Shown here in pieces: positions 27,650 to 55,585 of a DNA stretch of 58,592 nucleotides. The notes beneath the pieces were generated by a model. The model was given only the letters and a program-made list of their open reading frames with translations. It had not been told where the DNA came from and searched no databases. The translations under genes and the position numbers were made by a program. Position 1 is the first letter of the stretch, and each line of letters begins with the position of its first letter. Source of the DNA: a virus; IMG/VR virus record IMGVR_UViG_3300041809_003506, positions 1 through 58,592 of that record; one strand, given 5' to 3'.

Positions 27650-27874
27650 TTAGATCATCCGCGCCGCGGCTGCGCCCTTGAGCTTGCGGGCAGCCTTGGT
27701 CAGATAGGTCTGCGGCTTGTGCGCTTCGAGCGGAGGGGAAGGCTTGGCACCAGGCGGCCAATCCTCCGCCGAGACAACTTCGCCGCGCGCTGCGGCTGCC
27801 GCTGCGACATCATCCGGCACCAGCGCCGGATTGCCCATGCCTCGAAGCATGCGGTTGAAGGTTACAAGTTTCAT
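27650..27874 (-). CDS. Small protein, unknown function
   Basis: A 74-residue protein starting MKLVTFNRMLRGMGNPALVP with an Ala-rich middle and a basic C-terminus. Its ATG overlaps the stop of the glycosyltransferase gene (ATGA). No family recognised. A longer reading in this frame is rejected because it runs across the glycosyltransferase gene. Confidence 0.55.
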   Translation of the reverse strand: MKLVTFNRMLRGMGNPALVPDDVAAAAAARGEVVSAEDWPPGAKPSPPLEAHKPQTYLTKAARKLKGAAAARMI

Positions 27875-29376
27875 TCTGCGGCCTCCAGGCGCTCGACCGG
27901 CGCCGGCAACATGGTTTCGGCGAGCGCGCCGGTCCATGCCTTGCTGCCGACATGCGACAGCACAATTTCCGGATCGACCCATATCGAACCGCCGAGCTCG
28001 CGCCAGCGCTGACAGAACACATAGTCCTCGCCCATCTCCCGCTGGTCGTCGGGATCGAAGCGGAAAAACTGATAGTAATTCGCCCTGATGTCGGCCGGCA
28101 TATTCGGCGGACCGTCGCGCTTCCAGTCCGGATGCGCGGCGATCAGTTGCTCGAACACGCAGCGCTCCACTTTCATGAACGCAGTGCCGACCGCAAACAC
28201 TTCCACGGCGCCCATGGAGTCCTGCGGCGGGAAACTCATGTCCTTGGCGACCTTGCGGTGCAGGCACCAGACTTCCGGATCGCTGTTCGGCTTGTCGACC
28301 TTCATGCGGCCGACACCGGCAATAACTTTCTGCTCGGAGGCCAATAAGCGCAGCAGCGCATCCGGATTCCAGCCCATGTCGTCGTCGATGAAGACAAGGT
28401 CGGTGCATCGCGACGCCAGGAACTTCGCCGCGATCTTGTTGCGGGCGGCGGGAAGGTTCGACGAGCCGATGATGAAATAGGTCTCGTATGCCATGCCGAG
28501 CTGCGTCAGCTTCACCAGCGTGTCGGCGAAGGCGACCGTGAACTCGAAGACCGGCTGCCGCGCCGTCGGCACACCGATCATCACGCGGCGCGAAACAGCG
28601 CGCTTGCGCCGCGCTTCCACGATCGGATCGGCTTTGGCAGCGACCTTCAATCGCGCCGGCTCATTGCGATGGCTCCTGATCTTCGCTGAGATGACCGCGC
28701 GATCACCCTGCAGCCAGGCGCGATAGATTTCCTCGTCGCCCTTCCACAGACCATTGTGTAGATCCGGCCCATGATGCTTCTGCGTGAAGCCTGCGCCATA
28801 GACATCCTGATGCGTCGCGTCGGGCTGGGCTTCGCCCTTCATGACGTGGGCGTGGCGCACCATCACGTCCATCAGTACGCGCCAGCAAGAGCTGTCGCGG
28901 CCGATCGTTTCCCAAAGATCGTCGACGAACAGATGATGCATGCCGGGCGCGAAGATATAGTCAACCGCTCGGATAAGCTCACCGGACATCACCCAGCAAT
29001 TGGCGACGCGGTTCGGCGCCAGCCAGCCGTCGTTGCAGGACACGATGCCGACGTTCCAGCCATCGAGCGCATCGACCAGGCGCCGATCCCAGGCGATCGT
29101 CTCGGGCACATTGTCGTCGCCGATCAGGCCGAGCCAACCGATGCCCTGCCTTGCCGTTTCCCAAATTTCGCGGATCTTGTCGCCTTGGGTCACACCAATG
29201 GTCTTGATGATCCGCCAATCGTGCGGCAGCTCGAGCGCGTCGTAAGCTTGCCGATGGCGCTCGTAGTCCTTGGCATCGATCAGAAGGAGGCCGGGCGTCG
29301 ACAGGCCGGTCGATCGGCAGGCGTCGAAGAAACGCTCGAGATGACCAGGACGGTCTTTACTAGGCAGCAGCCACAT
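27871..29376 (-). CDS. Two-domain glycosyltransferase (GT-A type)
   Basis: A 501-residue protein with two tandem GT-A-like domains. The first (1-240) has WLLPSKDRPGHLERFFDACR and a DxD-like LIGDDN at 85-89. The second (about 263-500) begins RRVMIGVPTARQPVFEFTVA and carries FIIGSSNLPAARNKIAAKFL followed by VFIDDDMGW (Asp331-333), the usual metal and sugar-nucleotide site. Its start overlaps the end of the radical SAM gene by 17 bp, so the two are likely made together. It lies between capsid and connector genes, where a virion modification role is plausible. Confidence 0.8.
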   Translation of the reverse strand: MWLLPSKDRPGHLERFFDACRSTGLSTPGLLLIDAKDYERHRQAYDALELPHDWRIIKTIGVTQGDKIREIWETARQGIGWLGLIGDDNVPETIAWDRRLVDALDGWNVGIVSCNDGWLAPNRVANCWVMSGELIRAVDYIFAPGMHHLFVDDLWETIGRDSSCWRVLMDVMVRHAHVMKGEAQPDATHQDVYGAGFTQKHHGPDLHNGLWKGDEEIYRAWLQGDRAVISAKIRSHRNEPARLKVAAKADPIVEARRKRAVSRRVMIGVPTARQPVFEFTVAFADTLVKLTQLGMAYETYFIIGSSNLPAARNKIAAKFLASRCTDLVFIDDDMGWNPDALLRLLASEQKVIAGVGRMKVDKPNSDPEVWCLHRKVAKDMSFPPQDSMGAVEVFAVGTAFMKVERCVFEQLIAAHPDWKRDGPPNMPADIRANYYQFFRFDPDDQREMGEDYVFCQRWRELGGSIWVDPEIVLSHVGSKAWTGALAETMLPAPVERLEAAE

Positions 29377-30580
29377 AGGCGCGCTCTCCGTTCAACAACT
29401 TGCGCGTCATGGCGCGCACATCGGCATCGGCCGCAAGCTTGATGACGCCGGCGGCCGGATAATCGAGCCGCGCCTCGTCGATGATGTAGCCGCGATAACG
29501 CTTGGCTGGCTCGATCTCGTGATCGCCGAAGCTCTGCAGATAGCCGCGATCGATTCCGTCGCAAACGTGCATGGCCTGGCAGCCGCGGCACTTCTCCGGA
29601 AACACCTTGCCGGATCCAGCCCGCGCCGCGAACAACTCGATATTGCCGACGCGCTCTTTCAGATCGCGCAGCGGAAATTGCGTTTGTGTATCCTTCAGTG
29701 GCCAGGGCTTGCCCATCTCGCGCATCGAGGAAGACGTTGCCGCAACCGGATCGGCCGTATGGTCGATCTGATTCATCCACTCGTGGGTATCGTGGCGGAC
29801 GCCGACAACGCCGACGTGATTGCGTTCCATGCCGGCGATCATGCACTGCGGCGCGTAGCGGACGGTGCACGCGATGCCCGCAGCTTCAACGGTTGCCACC
29901 GCCTCGCGCAGATAGCCGGCGATCTCCGTGTAGCTCACCCGATGATCGCCGCTGTGTGTCGGCCGCGACCATTGATAGTAGGGCATGAAGAACAGGAACG
30001 TCGTCGCGTAGACTTCCGGACGCGCCGCGATCCACTTGGCGATCTCCGGCAGATATTTGTAATTCTGCTCGGTGATCGTCGTGTTGGTGATGTATTGGAA
30101 GCCGCGACGCTGCAGCGCGTCCATCGCCGCGACCAGAAGCGAGAGCTCGCCGCCGGTCATGGCCTTGAACATCGCCGCGTCGGTCGAATGCAGCGAGAAC
30201 CGAAAATCAACAAGTCCAGCCTCGAGCAGCCGCTCGAGCAGATTGCGCCGCGTGAGGAACTGGCCGAGCGTGATGATGCGCGAGGCAAGCCCGCGCGACG
30301 TTGCATACGCTATCAGATCGACGATATGCGGAAACGCGCCAGGCTCGCCGCCAGTCACATCGAAGCCGAGAAAGCCGTGCTCGGCTAATGAATCGACCAG
30401 CGCCCGCAGATTATCGATGCCATGCCACTTGGCGTGGCGCATGCCGGTGAACTGATCTTCCGTGTCGCCAAGATATGAGTAGAAGCAATGGCGGCATGAA
30501 TGCGTGCATTTGAGGCCCACATCCACGACGCCCCACCGGGACAGCCGGCCTGGCGCGTGGATGTGGAGTCCTTCAAACAC
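29360..30580 (-). CDS. Radical SAM enzyme with SPASM-like C-terminus
   Basis: A 406-residue protein with the CxxxCxxC cluster motif at Cys25, Cys29 and Cys32 (CTHSCRHC), the SAM-binding GGEPG near residue 78, and later TIxLG and FRFSLHSTD strands of the radical SAM barrel. The C-terminal CRGCQAMHVC arrangement (about 335-345) looks like an auxiliary SPASM/twitch cluster, common in enzymes that modify peptides. GTG start; ribosome site weak. It is set between the decoration protein and the glycosyltransferase gene in the late operon. Substrate unknown. Confidence 0.85.
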   Translation of the reverse strand: MFEGLHIHAPGRLSRWGVVDVGLKCTHSCRHCFYSYLGDTEDQFTGMRHAKWHGIDNLRALVDSLAEHGFLGFDVTGGEPGAFPHIVDLIAYATSRGLASRIITLGQFLTRRNLLERLLEAGLVDFRFSLHSTDAAMFKAMTGGELSLLVAAMDALQRRGFQYITNTTITEQNYKYLPEIAKWIAARPEVYATTFLFFMPYYQWSRPTHSGDHRVSYTEIAGYLREAVATVEAAGIACTVRYAPQCMIAGMERNHVGVVGVRHDTHEWMNQIDHTADPVAATSSSMREMGKPWPLKDTQTQFPLRDLKERVGNIELFAARAGSGKVFPEKCRGCQAMHVCDGIDRGYLQSFGDHEIEPAKRYRGYIIDEARLDYPAAGVIKLAADADVRAMTRKLLNGERAYVAAA

Positions 30581-51226: not shown

Positions 51227-52234
51227 CTAGGAACGACCCTCGGCCCCTTGTTGTTCGGATAAGCCGAGGCTACGGATCAGATTGGCACTATCGGCGAAAC
51301 GCGCATGGCCGAGCCATGCGGCAAGGAAGCTATCGAGACGTTTATGATCGCCGGCGGCGCGATAGGCGGCGATCTTGCGTCGTGCACGGATGACGCTGTC
51401 GCGCCGCAATAGCTTGTGCGTCGACCAGATGAGGTAGCCGAGAAAATTGATGCCGCGGCTTGCCGGCGCGATCTGCCATTTCGAGAAGCGCAAGCCCAGC
51501 TCAGCGCGCGAGAACGCCTCGATGCTCTCCTTGACGGCGCGCAGATGACGGGAGCTCTCGCCGAGCACAACGAGATCGTCCATGTAGCGAAACCAGTAAT
51601 CCTCGCCCAGCGTCTGCTGCAGATGCCGATCGAGCGTAGCGCCGGTGTAAAGATTGGCGAAGACTTGCGAGGTGAGGCTGCCGATCGGCAGGCCGATGCC
51701 GCGCCGCGGCACCATCGCTTCGATCAACCGCAACGTGGCTTGGCAGCTGATCTTCGCTTCGATCAGGCGCCAGAGCGCGCCATGCTCGATCGAGGCAAAG
51801 TATCGAGAGAAATCCGTCTTCAGGAAATAGACCTGGCCCCGGCGCGAGAGATGCCGGAGATCGCGCTGCAGGGCGATCGCGCCGGCGTGCGTGCCCTTGC
51901 CGGGGCGGCAGGCGAAGCTACGCGGCAGCAACGCGCGATCGAAGATCGGCGCGATGATCAGGCACAACGCCTGCTGCGCGACCCGGTCGCGGAACGGCAA
52001 CGCCGAGATCAATCGTCGCTTCGGATCGAGGATGAAAAACTCGTTCGGAGCGCCAGGCGAATAATGACCGGCCGCCATGTCCTGGGCGAGATCGGCGAGA
52101 TTGAGCGCGTCATATTCCTTGAAATCGAGATAGCCAGCGGTCAGACGCTTGCCGCGCGCCGTCAACCGATAGGCTGTCTGCATCGTTTCGAACGATGTGA
52201 TCTGGCCGATGAGGTTGCGGTAACGCTGTGACAT
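51227..52234 (-). CDS. DGR reverse transcriptase
   Basis: A 335-residue reverse transcriptase. Motifs: KTDFSRYFASIEHG (139-152) for the first catalytic Asp, GLPIGSLTSQ at 181-190 (the GxxxSQ form that marks DGR enzymes), and YMDD at 217-220 with the two catalytic Asp. The thumb follows (FSKWQIAPASRGINFLGYLI). It lies 183 bp downstream of TR. The ATG at 52234 starts the RT homology; the same frame stays open upstream through TR to 52585. It copies TR RNA and, with Avd, makes adenine-mutated cDNA. Confidence 0.96.
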   Translation of the reverse strand: MSQRYRNLIGQITSFETMQTAYRLTARGKRLTAGYLDFKEYDALNLADLAQDMAAGHYSPGAPNEFFILDPKRRLISALPFRDRVAQQALCLIIAPIFDRALLPRSFACRPGKGTHAGAIALQRDLRHLSRRGQVYFLKTDFSRYFASIEHGALWRLIEAKISCQATLRLIEAMVPRRGIGLPIGSLTSQVFANLYTGATLDRHLQQTLGEDYWFRYMDDLVVLGESSRHLRAVKESIEAFSRAELGLRFSKWQIAPASRGINFLGYLIWSTHKLLRRDSVIRARRKIAAYRAAGDHKRLDSFLAAWLGHARFADSANLIRSLGLSEQQGAEGRS

Positions 52235-52417
52235 TCCTGGTTCGCACGCTGAGATGAAGATGCCGGCCGCGGGTCTCGACGGGCTTTGCCCGCTACGCCC
52301 CGCTCTGCCGGACCTTGAAGTGTGTTCGCCGAAGCAGGACAGACGGGCTGACCACCGACCTTGATCTTGTGTGGCCGGCCGGCGTGACCTTAGTCGTCGC
52401 CGAGCCGTGATCCGGTC

Positions 52418-52544
52418 GTCACAGCGGCCGCGAGCGCCCAAGTTATCGTTCGAGTTGTCCGGCCAGTTGTAGGCGACGTTCGCGTAGCGCGAGCCCGCGT
52501 TGTCGACGTTGAGCCAGGAACCGCCGAAGAAGGAAGCGCGCGGC
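52418..52544 (-). repeat. DGR template repeat (TR)
   Basis: A 127-bp segment matching VR at a constant offset of 564 bp. On the coding (minus) strand TR has adenines at 20 positions; nine differ in VR (plus-strand coordinates 52450, 52455, 52467, 52468, 52470, 52480, 52501, 52503, 52510), and none of the other 107 bases differ. Six of the eight altered codons are AAC in TR. It begins 5 bp after the avd stop. The GC-rich end (52421-52440) is the likely IMH-star region. Confidence 0.97.
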
Positions 52545-52548
52545 AGCA

Positions 52549-52935
52549 TCATATCCCCGTCCGCCCTCCGAGCTTCTTTTGCCACGCGCCCAGCATCCGC
52601 CCCGGCTCCGACAAGAGCGCTAGAGCAGTCTTGTGTTGATGCGGGGTGATGATCCGGATGCTGTCGCGGGCTAAGAAGCGCAGGTATGACCGCAAGGTCG
52701 CGAACTGAGCATCGACGGCGTGCAGCCGGGATATCTGTCTCGACTTTGCGGAGTGATAGAGGCCGCCGATCGGCTCGAACAACGCGGTTAACACGGTGTC
52801 GCGAAGAACGCCATGTTGACGCGGGCTGCGCTGCAGGATCGGGTAGAGATAGCTCACGAAGGCCTCGTATTTTTCGACGATCGCCAAAGCGTCAGTGCTG
52901 GTATTTTCGTCTCTGATGATCGTCGTTTCGTTCAT
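52549..52935 (-). CDS. avd: DGR accessory variability determinant (Avd-like)
   Basis: A 128-residue, basic, all-helical protein with LAIVEKYEAFVSYLYPILQR then SPRQHGVLRDTVLTALFEPI, GGLYHSAKSRQISRLHAVDA and TALALLSEPGRMLGAWQKKL. This fits the four-helix bundle of Avd proteins that form pentamers and bind RT and TR RNA. It sits between target gene and TR, as in Bordetella phage BPP-1. Its stop overlaps an ATG (ATGA) that opens the TR frame. Confidence 0.92.
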   Translation of the reverse strand: MNETTIIRDENTSTDALAIVEKYEAFVSYLYPILQRSPRQHGVLRDTVLTALFEPIGGLYHSAKSRQISRLHAVDAQFATLRSYLRFLARDSIRIITPHQHKTALALLSEPGRMLGAWQKKLGGRTGI

Positions 52936-52963
52936 TTCTCAAGCGCCGTCGCTGTCGCGCCGG

Positions 52964-53878
52964 CTAAGCAAGCTGCAGGTGGTCACAGCGGCCGCGAGCG
53001 CCCAAGTTATCGTCCGAGCTGTCCGGCCAGACGCAGGCGACGTCCGCGTAGCGCGAGCCCGCGTAGACGACGTAGAGCCAGGAACCGCCGAAGAAGGAAG
53101 CGCGCGGCTCGTCCGGATCGCCATCGTGGCCCCAAACCCACATATTGCCGGTCGCCTGCATCAAGCCGAATTTGCTGGTGCGAGGCGCATCAAGCGCGGT
53201 GACGCGAGGGTTGCTGGAATGCGCGGTCTTTTCCGTCACGCCGAGGGCGGCGGCAAAGAACTCCTCAACGCTGAGCAATCCCTTGCCGTGATGCTTCATG
53301 ACGGCAACGGCCGTGTCATAGTCGAGCTTGGAGAAATGCTTGCCGTTCGGCTTTGCCGGCGGATCGTCGCCGTCCGCGATCGTCGCACCCAACTTGCTGG
53401 TGCCGTCGGCGACGTGGCTGACGCCGAGTAAATAGATATCGCACCAAAATTTGCCGGTCGGCGCATCGACCAGCACCATGCCGCGCGGATCGGGGCATAC
53501 CGGACGAAAACTCAGATCCCATAGTGAGTAGGGATTAATCGCCGGGATCTCATCGCCGCCTTTACGCGCTGCCGCGCTGCCGCCTGGCGCGAAGTGGAAA
53601 CCGCCGAGGATATCGTCTCCGACGATCGGCGAGGTTAGATGAGCGTAGCCGACTGCCCCGTCCTTGATCACAACGACGTAGTCGCAGCCAGGCTCCAAGG
53701 GAATGTCGAAAACGACGGGCGTATCCTTATCAAAGGTCACGCCGGCGTAGATCGTGCCGGCCTTGATTGCAATTGAATCTCGTCCGGTCACCAGCAGCGC
53801 CGGCGAGTTCGGATCCTTTTTGACCATCGTCGCCGTCGCGGCGGCGAGCCCGGTCTTCAATGCAGCATGCGAGTTCAT
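52964..53878 (-). CDS. DGR target protein with C-terminal lectin-type (FGE-like) variable domain
   Basis: A 304-residue protein. Residues 1-100 form a beta-rich N-terminal domain (PNSPALLVTGRDSIAIKAGT; IYAGVTFDKDTPVVFDIPLE). The C-terminal domain ends with FGLMQATGNMWVWGHDGDPD and ASFFGGSW, typical of the formylglycine-generating-enzyme-like C-type lectin fold used by DGR targets. Residues changed relative to TR are 269, 271, 272, 279, 282, 283, 287 and 289, on the expected binding face. GGAG precedes the ATG. It is probably displayed for ligand binding, but the virion location is inference. Confidence 0.93.
   Translation of the reverse strand: MNSHAALKTGLAAATATMVKKDPNSPALLVTGRDSIAIKAGTIYAGVTFDKDTPVVFDIPLEPGCDYVVVIKDGAVGYAHLTSPIVGDDILGGFHFAPGGSAAARKGGDEIPAINPYSLWDLSFRPVCPDPRGMVLVDAPTGKFWCDIYLLGVSHVADGTSKLGATIADGDDPPAKPNGKHFSKLDYDTAVAVMKHHGKGLLSVEEFFAAALGVTEKTAHSSNPRVTALDAPRTSKFGLMQATGNMWVWGHDGDPDEPRASFFGGSWLYVVYAGSRYADVACVWPDSSDDNLGARGRCDHLQLA
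52982..53108 (-). repeat. DGR variable repeat (VR)
   Basis: The 127-bp recipient repeat in the 3' end of the target gene. Differences from TR on the coding strand are A to G (5) and A to T (4) only, over eight codons, for example Asn to Tyr, Asp to Val, Asn to Ser. The identity runs to within 18 bp of the target stop. The GC-rich end (52985-53004) is the likely IMH. Confidence 0.97.
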
Positions 53879-53902
53879 GTGTCAGGACTCCAGGTAATGC
53901 CG

Positions 53903-53922
53903 GCACCCCGCCGGCGGGGTGC
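53903..53922. repeat. 20-nt perfect palindrome upstream of the DGR target gene
   Basis: GCACCCCGCC followed by GGCGGGGTGC, perfectly self-complementary, 25 bp upstream of the target start. There is no T-run on either strand, so it may be an operator, or a stem at the 5' end of the target mRNA. The gene-free stretch 53879-54166 otherwise shows no reliable gene. Confidence 0.6.
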
Positions 53923-54166
53923 AAGAGGATCGGGCGACGGCGGGGCACATAGCGCGATCACGCGCCTTCCCGACGGAGGCGGCCGCAAAGCAGGCCCCCG
54001 CATATTTGACCCGGGCTCATGGATGCCAAGGCCGCCGCCCGAACTGAATATCCCCATCAGAAGCGTCAGAACTCCGGCGGGCGTCGCTTGCCAATGGCGA
54101 CGGTGGTCCCTTTTGGCAGGCTGCCGGCATTTCGTATGACCTACGCTGACGCTCCTGGTGGGGATT

Positions 54167-54400
54167 TCAATCGACGAATTCTTTGTTGACGACGACGATG
54201 CCGCGCGCCGGCACTTTGCGCTCGCCGTTGATGATGCGATTGGCGTGGCGCTCGCTGCACCGGATGCGCTGCGCGAGCCATTGTGCCGGCTTGATGCCGC
54301 CGGCGAGCGCGACGATGCATTTGCCGAAGGAACTCTTAGGGACCAATTGGTCCCTAATTGGTTTTGACCGGCGCCGCTTCCTTGTGAACGATTCGCGCAT
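54167..54400 (-). CDS. Small helix-turn-helix regulator
   Basis: A 77-residue basic protein. The N-terminus is RESFTRKRRRSKPIRD. A helix-turn-helix follows: CIVALAGGIKPAQWLAQRIR, then CSERHANRIINGERKVPARG. It lies upstream of the DGR and is divergent from the next plus-strand gene, with operator-like repeats in the space between. A perfect 20-bp palindrome is inside its coding part. Probably a transcription regulator of Cro/antirepressor type. Confidence 0.6.
   Translation of the reverse strand: MRESFTRKRRRSKPIRDQLVPKSSFGKCIVALAGGIKPAQWLAQRIRCSERHANRIINGERKVPARGIVVVNKEFVD
54337..54356. repeat. 20-nt perfect palindrome inside the HTH gene
   Basis: TAGGGACCAA followed by TTGGTCCCTA, fully self-complementary, early in the coding sequence of the small HTH gene. 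It resembles a dyad operator and could allow self-repression, but its position within codons leaves chance open. Confidence 0.6.
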
Positions 54401-55109: not shown

Positions 55110-55135
55110 GTGCGAATCTCTGCGTGCGAATCTCT
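55110..55135. promoter_or_regulatory. Tandem 12-bp repeat at the divergent regulator starts
   Basis: GTGCGAATCTCT occurs twice (55110-55121 and 55124-55135), 14 bp apart, immediately upstream of the Cro-like gene on its minus strand. It is a candidate operator for the divergent promoters. Confidence 0.55.
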
Positions 55136-55216
55136 ACCATGAATGAAATTCTAGCTCAACAAGATTTATGGCCACACTCGATGGCACCCGCTACAGGTAT
55201 GGCTAAAATTCTAGTT

Positions 55217-55585
55217 ATGCCGAAGAAAGGCCCATATCTGCGCCGGCAGGAGCATCGCCTTCGGCTGCGCGAAAAGACGAACTTCGTGCGCGAGTGGCGC
55301 GAGACGAAGGGCTGGACGCAAGAAGAGCTGGCCGCTGAGTCGGGACTATCGGTCTCCAGCATTTCGGCCTACGAGCGGCTCACGATCGACGGCAACGATC
55401 CGAGCGTCGAGGCGCTGCGCAAGCTCGGCAAGGCCCTCGGCGTGCCCGGCGGCATGATCCTCGATATTGACCCGACTCAGGATCCGACGCTCTGGTCGGC
55501 GTTTCAGCGCGCCACGCCGGATCAACGGCGCGATATGGGAAGGGCCTTCGATGCAATGGTCGGACCGCAGAAGCGGAAGAAATAG
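55217..55585 (+). CDS. XRE-family repressor (CI-like)
   Basis: A 122-residue protein from the ATG at 55217. Helix-turn-helix: FVREWRETKGWTQEELAAES followed by GLSVSSISAYERLTIDGNDP. The C-terminus (TLWSAFQRATPDQRRDMGRA) lacks a LexA-type peptidase domain, so induction must work another way. None of the possible starts (GTG 55124, ATG 55139, 55199, 55217) has a ribosome site. A leaderless message, as for lambda cI, is possible. A TCTAG element overlaps the chosen start. Confidence 0.7.
   Translation: MPKKGPYLRRQEHRLRLREKTNFVREWRETKGWTQEELAAESGLSVSSISAYERLTIDGNDPSVEALRKLGKALGVPGGMILDIDPTQDPTLWSAFQRATPDQRRDMGRAFDAMVGPQKRKK

Follow-up and report, generated by a model that had tools for sequence, protein, structure and literature searches.

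The locus at 51227-53878 of a viral contig raises the question of whether its cassette is a complete and recently active diversity-generating retroelement (DGR), and how the reverse transcriptase (RT) of such an element is made when the open frame of the enzyme also takes in the template repeat (TR). The window, by which we mean the whole stretch of DNA analysed (58,592 nucleotides, positions 1 to 58,592 of IMG/VR record IMGVR_UViG_3300041809_003506), carries genes for integrase, repressor, primase, terminase, portal, head, tape-measure, tail and endolysin proteins, and on this gene content the phage is temperate with siphovirus-like tail genes. We think it very probable that the locus is a complete DGR of the BPP-1 type in a temperate tailed phage, and its sequence pattern points to a translated frame that covers TR and spacer and leads into the RT.

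Genomic setting of the cassette

The DGR cassette has the repressor end on one side and the replication genes on the other. A search of genome contigs gave two metagenome-assembled genomes, one from Xanthobacteraceae and one alphaproteobacterial, and the host is probably an alphaproteobacterium. Near the left end of the window are a tRNA-Pro (CGG; 92-168) and, at 886-972, a sequence matching the alphaproteobacterial mmgR/suhB RNA, and this end is a probable host flank or attachment region. Comparison of the two window ends for an att repeat found nothing beyond one match of 16 bp and one of 14 bp, and no convincing att site. A perfect 22-bp palindrome (TTAGGGACCAATTGGTCCCTAA, 54336-54357) adjoins a cro-like ORF (minus strand, ending at 54167) and the repressor (55124-55585, plus strand), and is likely to be the operator of the lysis-lysogeny switch. 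A second, GC-rich palindrome (GCACCCCGCCGGCGGGGTGC, 53899-53925) sits just 5′ of the start codon of the target gene; a promoter scan 5′ of that gene found nothing above chance. Between the head and tail genes, the minus strand encodes glycosyltransferase/methyltransferase-like and radical-SAM-like proteins (27871-30580).

The cassette is a complete DGR of the BPP-1 type

The cassette has every part of a BPP-1-type DGR, in the BPP-1 order. On the minus strand, the target gene (53878-52964) is followed by avd (52935-52549), the TR (52544-52418), a spacer and the RT (52234-51227). The DGR-clade RT has a core of 335 amino acids with the motifs GSLTSQ (GxxxSQ) and RYMDD (YMDD) in its translation, and matches Pfam RVT_1, PHROG 1423 (E = 1e-107) and the solved RT of the BPP-1 DGR (PDB 8ub7_A, E = 5.1e-110). 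The accessory protein Avd (128 amino acids) matches Pfam bAvd (E = 2.7e-26), PHROG 3206 and the structures 4dwl and 8ub7_B. The structured spacer (Sp) RNA 3′ of the TR (52262-52405, minus strand) is a full-length match to Rfam RF03022, Phage_DGR, at 89.2 bits (gathering threshold 50). The set is completed by an adenine-only relationship between TR and variable repeat (VR), by a C-type lectin target whose gene carries the VR at its 3′ end, and by the GC-rich hairpin after the VR (7-10 bp with a GRNA loop in this type), here with one mispair. The cassette is thus a complete DGR of a known type. A separate arrangement is seen on an Ideonella plasmid (L078, 1888-5287), which has two tandem avd-RT pairs.

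TR (52418-52544) and VR (52982-53108), both on the minus strand, align without gaps over 127 bp. Nine of the 20 template adenines are changed (five A to G and four A to T), as against none of the 107 other bases (Fisher's exact P = 9e-9), and the first non-adenine mismatch, G/C at 52417, falls just beyond this stretch. The VR encodes the C-terminal end of the target protein, and the TR has the codon frame of both the VR and the RT. A search of the window for a second VR found none. Thirteen TR codons bear adenines, all of them AAC, GAC, GAT or TAC, from which adenine changes cannot reach a stop codon. By analogy with BPP-1, the RT-Avd complex would copy the TR RNA while misreading adenines, and the cDNA would replace the VR, so that as many as about 7e11 protein variants (a number computed from these codons) could arise without stop codons.

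An earlier sequence-only reading had named an RT with GxxxSQ and YMDD, an Avd-like protein, a VR in a lectin-fold target and the BPP-1-like order target-avd-TR-RT, and each of these held in our searches; its count of 9 of 20 adenines and 0 of 107 other bases was reproduced exactly. The extent of the RT needed correction: the core starts at 52234, and the open frame starts at 52552 and takes in the TR.

Relatives point to recent activity

We compared 50 TR-VR pairs from 38 related cassettes. Template adenines differed at 613 of 1193 positions, and other bases at 22 of 4987, the latter a lower bound because the pairs were picked to have at most two non-adenine mismatches. Changed adenines had become G (331), T (171) or C (111). 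Pooled within cassettes, 21 of 4978 non-adenine sites differed, versus 19-21% between the templates of different cassettes, which indicates that each VR has been rewritten repeatedly from its own TR. Two pairs of close relatives gave the same picture: L041 and L043 differ at 20 positions over 10,071 bp, all in the VR and 19 of them at TR adenines, and all 12 VR differences between L060 and L061 fall at template adenines. The sequence-only reading had suggested recent activity and had named a comparison of VRs among relatives as a check. That comparison, in which differences lie nearly all at template adenines, bears the suggestion out: with each VR tracking its own TR and near-identical relatives differing almost only at VR adenines, recent activity of the DGR is a well-supported inference. 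Both pairs are distant from the window element (RT about 54% identical), and therefore show that this kind of element is active rather than that the window copy is.

Further target arrangements were seen among the relatives. Two tandem targets share a single TR, each VR being diversified separately, in L010, L016, L017, L020, L030, L031, L033, L035 and L037. Extra target copies lie away from the avd-side target in L006 (363-1226, minus strand), L023 (10896-11747) and L054 (2001-2879); one of these is on the opposite strand and some have no hairpin.

The hairpin of the window copy (GCCGGCGC-GACA-GCGACGGC, 52945-52964, minus strand) lies outside the repeat, and its first base is also the final base of the target's stop codon, as in BPP-1. 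Its loop fits GRNA and seven of its eight stem pairs form, with the mispair at pair 5. In BPP-1 the loop likewise fits GRNA and the stem must form (PMC3240598). Across 29 distinct relatives, a set that excluded rows with fewer than 6 pairs, the stem was 96.6% paired, seven of the eight pairs had changes on both sides, and the covariation score was 0.51 versus 0.12 for shuffled controls. The mispair leaves the present activity of the window copy uncertain and, given the importance of stem structure in BPP-1, would fit an element that diversified its VR in the past and has since become inactive. We regard such decay as improbable, as 17 of 67 related targets also have 7/8 stems, many of them mispaired at the same pair, the RT, Avd, Sp RNA and TR are intact, and the VR has not drifted at non-adenine sites.

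A short Mtd-like target among early genes

The target (304 amino acids, 52964-53878, minus strand) has a C-type-lectin-type C terminus that contains the VR. It matches Mtd by sequence (PDB 1yu3, E = 2.9e-51) and belongs to PHROG 11262, classed as a tail protein. When its predicted fold was searched with Foldseek, hits 1-5 were all Mtd (E = 3e-24 to 3e-23, best 1yu3); the VR part of the model had pLDDT below 50, so that the hypervariable end is not predictable. The alignment starts at residue 17 of the query and residue 56 of Mtd. Of the three Mtd domains (prism, sandwich and lectin), the target thus keeps the sandwich and the lectin, and the N-terminal prism of about 55 amino acids is absent. 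The same is true of its clade, in which 1-16 residues precede the second Mtd domain, versus 52-68 in BPP-1 and the long-form relatives. In Mtd, the prism promotes trimer formation together with the sandwich domain (PMC6328139).

The short forms also differ in where they sit. For 18 short-form cassettes, the matches in the flanks are to methyltransferases, ParB, repressors and integrase, and the 25 PHROGs most common there include no head or tail families, whereas long- and medium-form cassettes are flanked by tail fibre, tape measure, sheath and terminase genes. Where both landmarks were found, short-form cassettes lie roughly 6-27 kb from terminase and 2-12 kb from integrase. Judged from sequence, the window clade consists of short Mtd relatives placed among early and lysogeny genes, not tail genes. 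A search for tail-protein families as a measure of placement in the relatives was dropped as too narrow (3/19). We also rejected the idea that an early position is unique to this clade: phages Magia, Bise and QDWS have DGRs beside methyltransferase or integrase genes, and because these other phages, with unrelated small targets, share it, early-gene location alone does not set the clade apart. Separately, in two records named Escherichia phage T7 (LR745707.1 and LR745708.1), which are possibly engineered, the tail fibre gene (gene 17) includes an Mtd-like segment.

The missing prism, together with neighbours such as repressor, ParB, methyltransferase and integrase where long forms have tail genes, would suit a diversified binder that is expressed early or in the lysogen, such as a surface factor or an exclusion factor, rather than a tail protein of the virion. 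On balance we think this unlikely. Gene position does not tell the time of expression, PHROG classes the family as a tail protein, the N terminus shows no signal peptide or membrane segment by eye, and the target still has two of the domains of Mtd, a protein with proven receptor binding. These short, early-placed relatives of Mtd nonetheless raise the question of whether every DGR target in phages is a tail protein.

The template lies in an open frame that continues into the RT

A continuous open frame of 441 amino acids (51227-52552, minus strand) covers TR, Sp and RT, and its start codon overlaps the avd stop in an ATGA (52549-52552, minus strand). On this 441-residue RT, the alignment of the PHROG 1423 profile begins at residue 8, so the family covers TR-encoded residues, and annotators of VP58.5, ARM81mr, ACA1 and Magia have called long RT genes. 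The frame could nevertheless be incidental in an otherwise ordinary BPP-1-type DGR, a product of GC-rich sequence, of a TR tied to the coding VR and of shared ancestry, with the RT initiating only at its own start.

Frame statistics speak against chance. In 43 cassettes, the interval from the avd stop to the RT was free of stops in the RT frame in 36, and in the other two frames in 13 and 4. The depletion is confined to the RT frame in the spacer alone, where there were 8 stops versus 37 and 55. Within the window set, 34 of 40 cassettes had the RT frame open from the avd stop to the RT (expected 10.0, P = 6e-16); in two separately collected test sets, it was open in 15 of 15 VP58.5-like cassettes (expected 1.9) and 25 of 38 BPP-1-like ones (expected 5.1). 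The VP58.5-like, Vibrio-type cassettes are less GC-rich, and their continuity counts against base composition as the cause. Counting any frame, the interval was open in 40/40, 15/15 and 33/38 cassettes of the three sets (13.1 expected for the BPP-1-like), and off-frame ORFs mostly stop at RT −2, +1 or +5, that is, on or beside the RT start codon. Distances from the avd stop to the RT vary but leave the same remainder modulo 3 in 31 of 40, 15 of 15 and 24 of 38 cassettes, respectively. Cassette counts are not independent, because the cassettes are related; after clustering at 80% RT identity, Sp was open in 21 of 23 (expected 9.9, P = 9e-7), and the excess persisted at 75% and 70% identity (P = 1e-3 and 0.01).

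Start codons follow the same pattern. In 27 of 31 cassettes the first ATG at the avd stop shared the RT frame (17 of 21 in another count); of the four exceptions, three open a frame that closes with an ATGA at the RT start codon, and the fourth opens one that ends 5 nt inside the RT. Cassettes without a Shine-Dalgarno sequence at the RT start were more often continuous (71/92 versus 14/28; P = 0.009, kinship ignored). In BPP-1 itself there is no ATG at the avd stop, only GTG, CTG or TTG options.

The content of the frame behaves differently from its continuity. Indels in Sp favour multiples of three (301:118:77), and substitutions fall evenly across codon positions in Sp (0.26, 0.22 and 0.23), unlike in the RT (0.20, 0.17 and 0.43). 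We rejected protein-level conservation of the Sp-encoded extension, as Sp shows no third-position excess; the frame is thus kept and the amino acids are not. This lack of protein-type constraint suits an incidental frame, as do the solved BPP-1 complex (8ub7), which matches the RT from its first residue, and the distant DGRs without continuity. Several such cassettes led us to reject continuity as a universal DGR rule, and it is not a general requirement. Against these points stand the frame-specific loss of stops, the open Vibrio-type cassettes, the placement of start codons and of off-frame ends, and the excess of continuity where a Shine-Dalgarno sequence is missing, and we hold an incidental frame to be rather unlikely.

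A possible dual role for the template RNA

Continuity conserved far beyond chance in the window set, the BPP-1 relatives and the Vibrio-phage relatives suggests instead that the RT is made by ribosomes that traverse the template. Ribosomes finishing avd would restart at the overlapping ATG and run through TR and spacer into the RT, which would be produced with an N-terminal extension or, in some relatives, by way of a second stop/start overlap. Continuity of the TR-Sp frame would then matter, and the encoded content seemingly would not. From this we put forward, tentatively and with somewhat less than even confidence, that template RNA of the BPP-1 type doubles as coding sequence: avd-coupled ribosomes would make the RT, mostly without a ribosome-binding site (RBS) of its own, and ribosome clearance, perhaps by RT-Avd bound to the spacer, would be needed before templating, creating a feedback switch between enzyme and diversification. 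Coupling of avd and RT cannot be absolute, because TR donors with stop codons were functional in Bordetella (PMC3240598).

Comparison with known systems

As a DGR, the window element is one further member of a well-studied class. What we add to the sequence-only reading is descriptive in one part, a clade of Mtd relatives that are short and placed early, and a hypothesis in the other, a translated template in BPP-1-type DGRs, for which sequence comparison gives strong statistical support. Roux et al. 2021 catalogued phage DGRs with C-lectin targets in a large metagenome set (PMC8144416), which probably contains relatives of the window contig; the main text of that paper mentions neither Alphaproteobacteria nor Mtd. 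The DiGReF survey (PMC3521204) defines a structural group 3, in which the TR overlaps the annotated RT ORF, and with the TR inside its frame at 51227-52552 the window element falls in this group. In the parts of the survey on which we draw, gene order was read as irrelevant, RT and TR RNAs were inferred to be separate transcripts, and no test of frame conservation was found. We found no earlier test of TR-RT frame conservation in the open-licence literature, and single cases of the architecture have been noted before. Pseudoalteromonas phage ACA1 and Vibrio phage VP58.5 resemble the window element in having the TR inside the RT open frame and an ATGA overlap with avd, and the authors of PMC10612066 state that translation of the TR gives the RT an N-terminal extension. 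Unlike the window cassette, theirs have an RT only about 35-37% identical to the window RT, another target protein and a position in the tail module.

The closest model is BPP-1 (mtd-avd-TR-brt), which shares the gene order, Avd, the adenine-only TR/VR pair, the RF03022 Sp RNA, the hairpin after the VR and an RT frame that is also open through TR and Sp; its Mtd is 38% identical to the window target and its RT 53% identical to the window RT. The window differs from BPP-1 in a target without the N-terminal prism, a siphovirus-like genome and a cassette between repressor/cro-like and replication genes rather than after tail genes. Its TR-RT frame, unlike that of BPP-1, starts at an ATGA overlap with avd, and its TR shares the frame of the VR codons and the RT. 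When the BPP-1 DGR was moved to E. coli, in work from 2026, no clear RBS was seen before brt, an added RBS gave a 100-fold gain, and the TR contained tandem stops (PMC12875486); if these stops lie in the RT frame of that construct, they may have cut avd-RT coupling. A translated template, if true, would explain both why native brt has no clear RBS and why the stop-bearing operon performed poorly until one was added, and would bear on how the output of a DGR is set.
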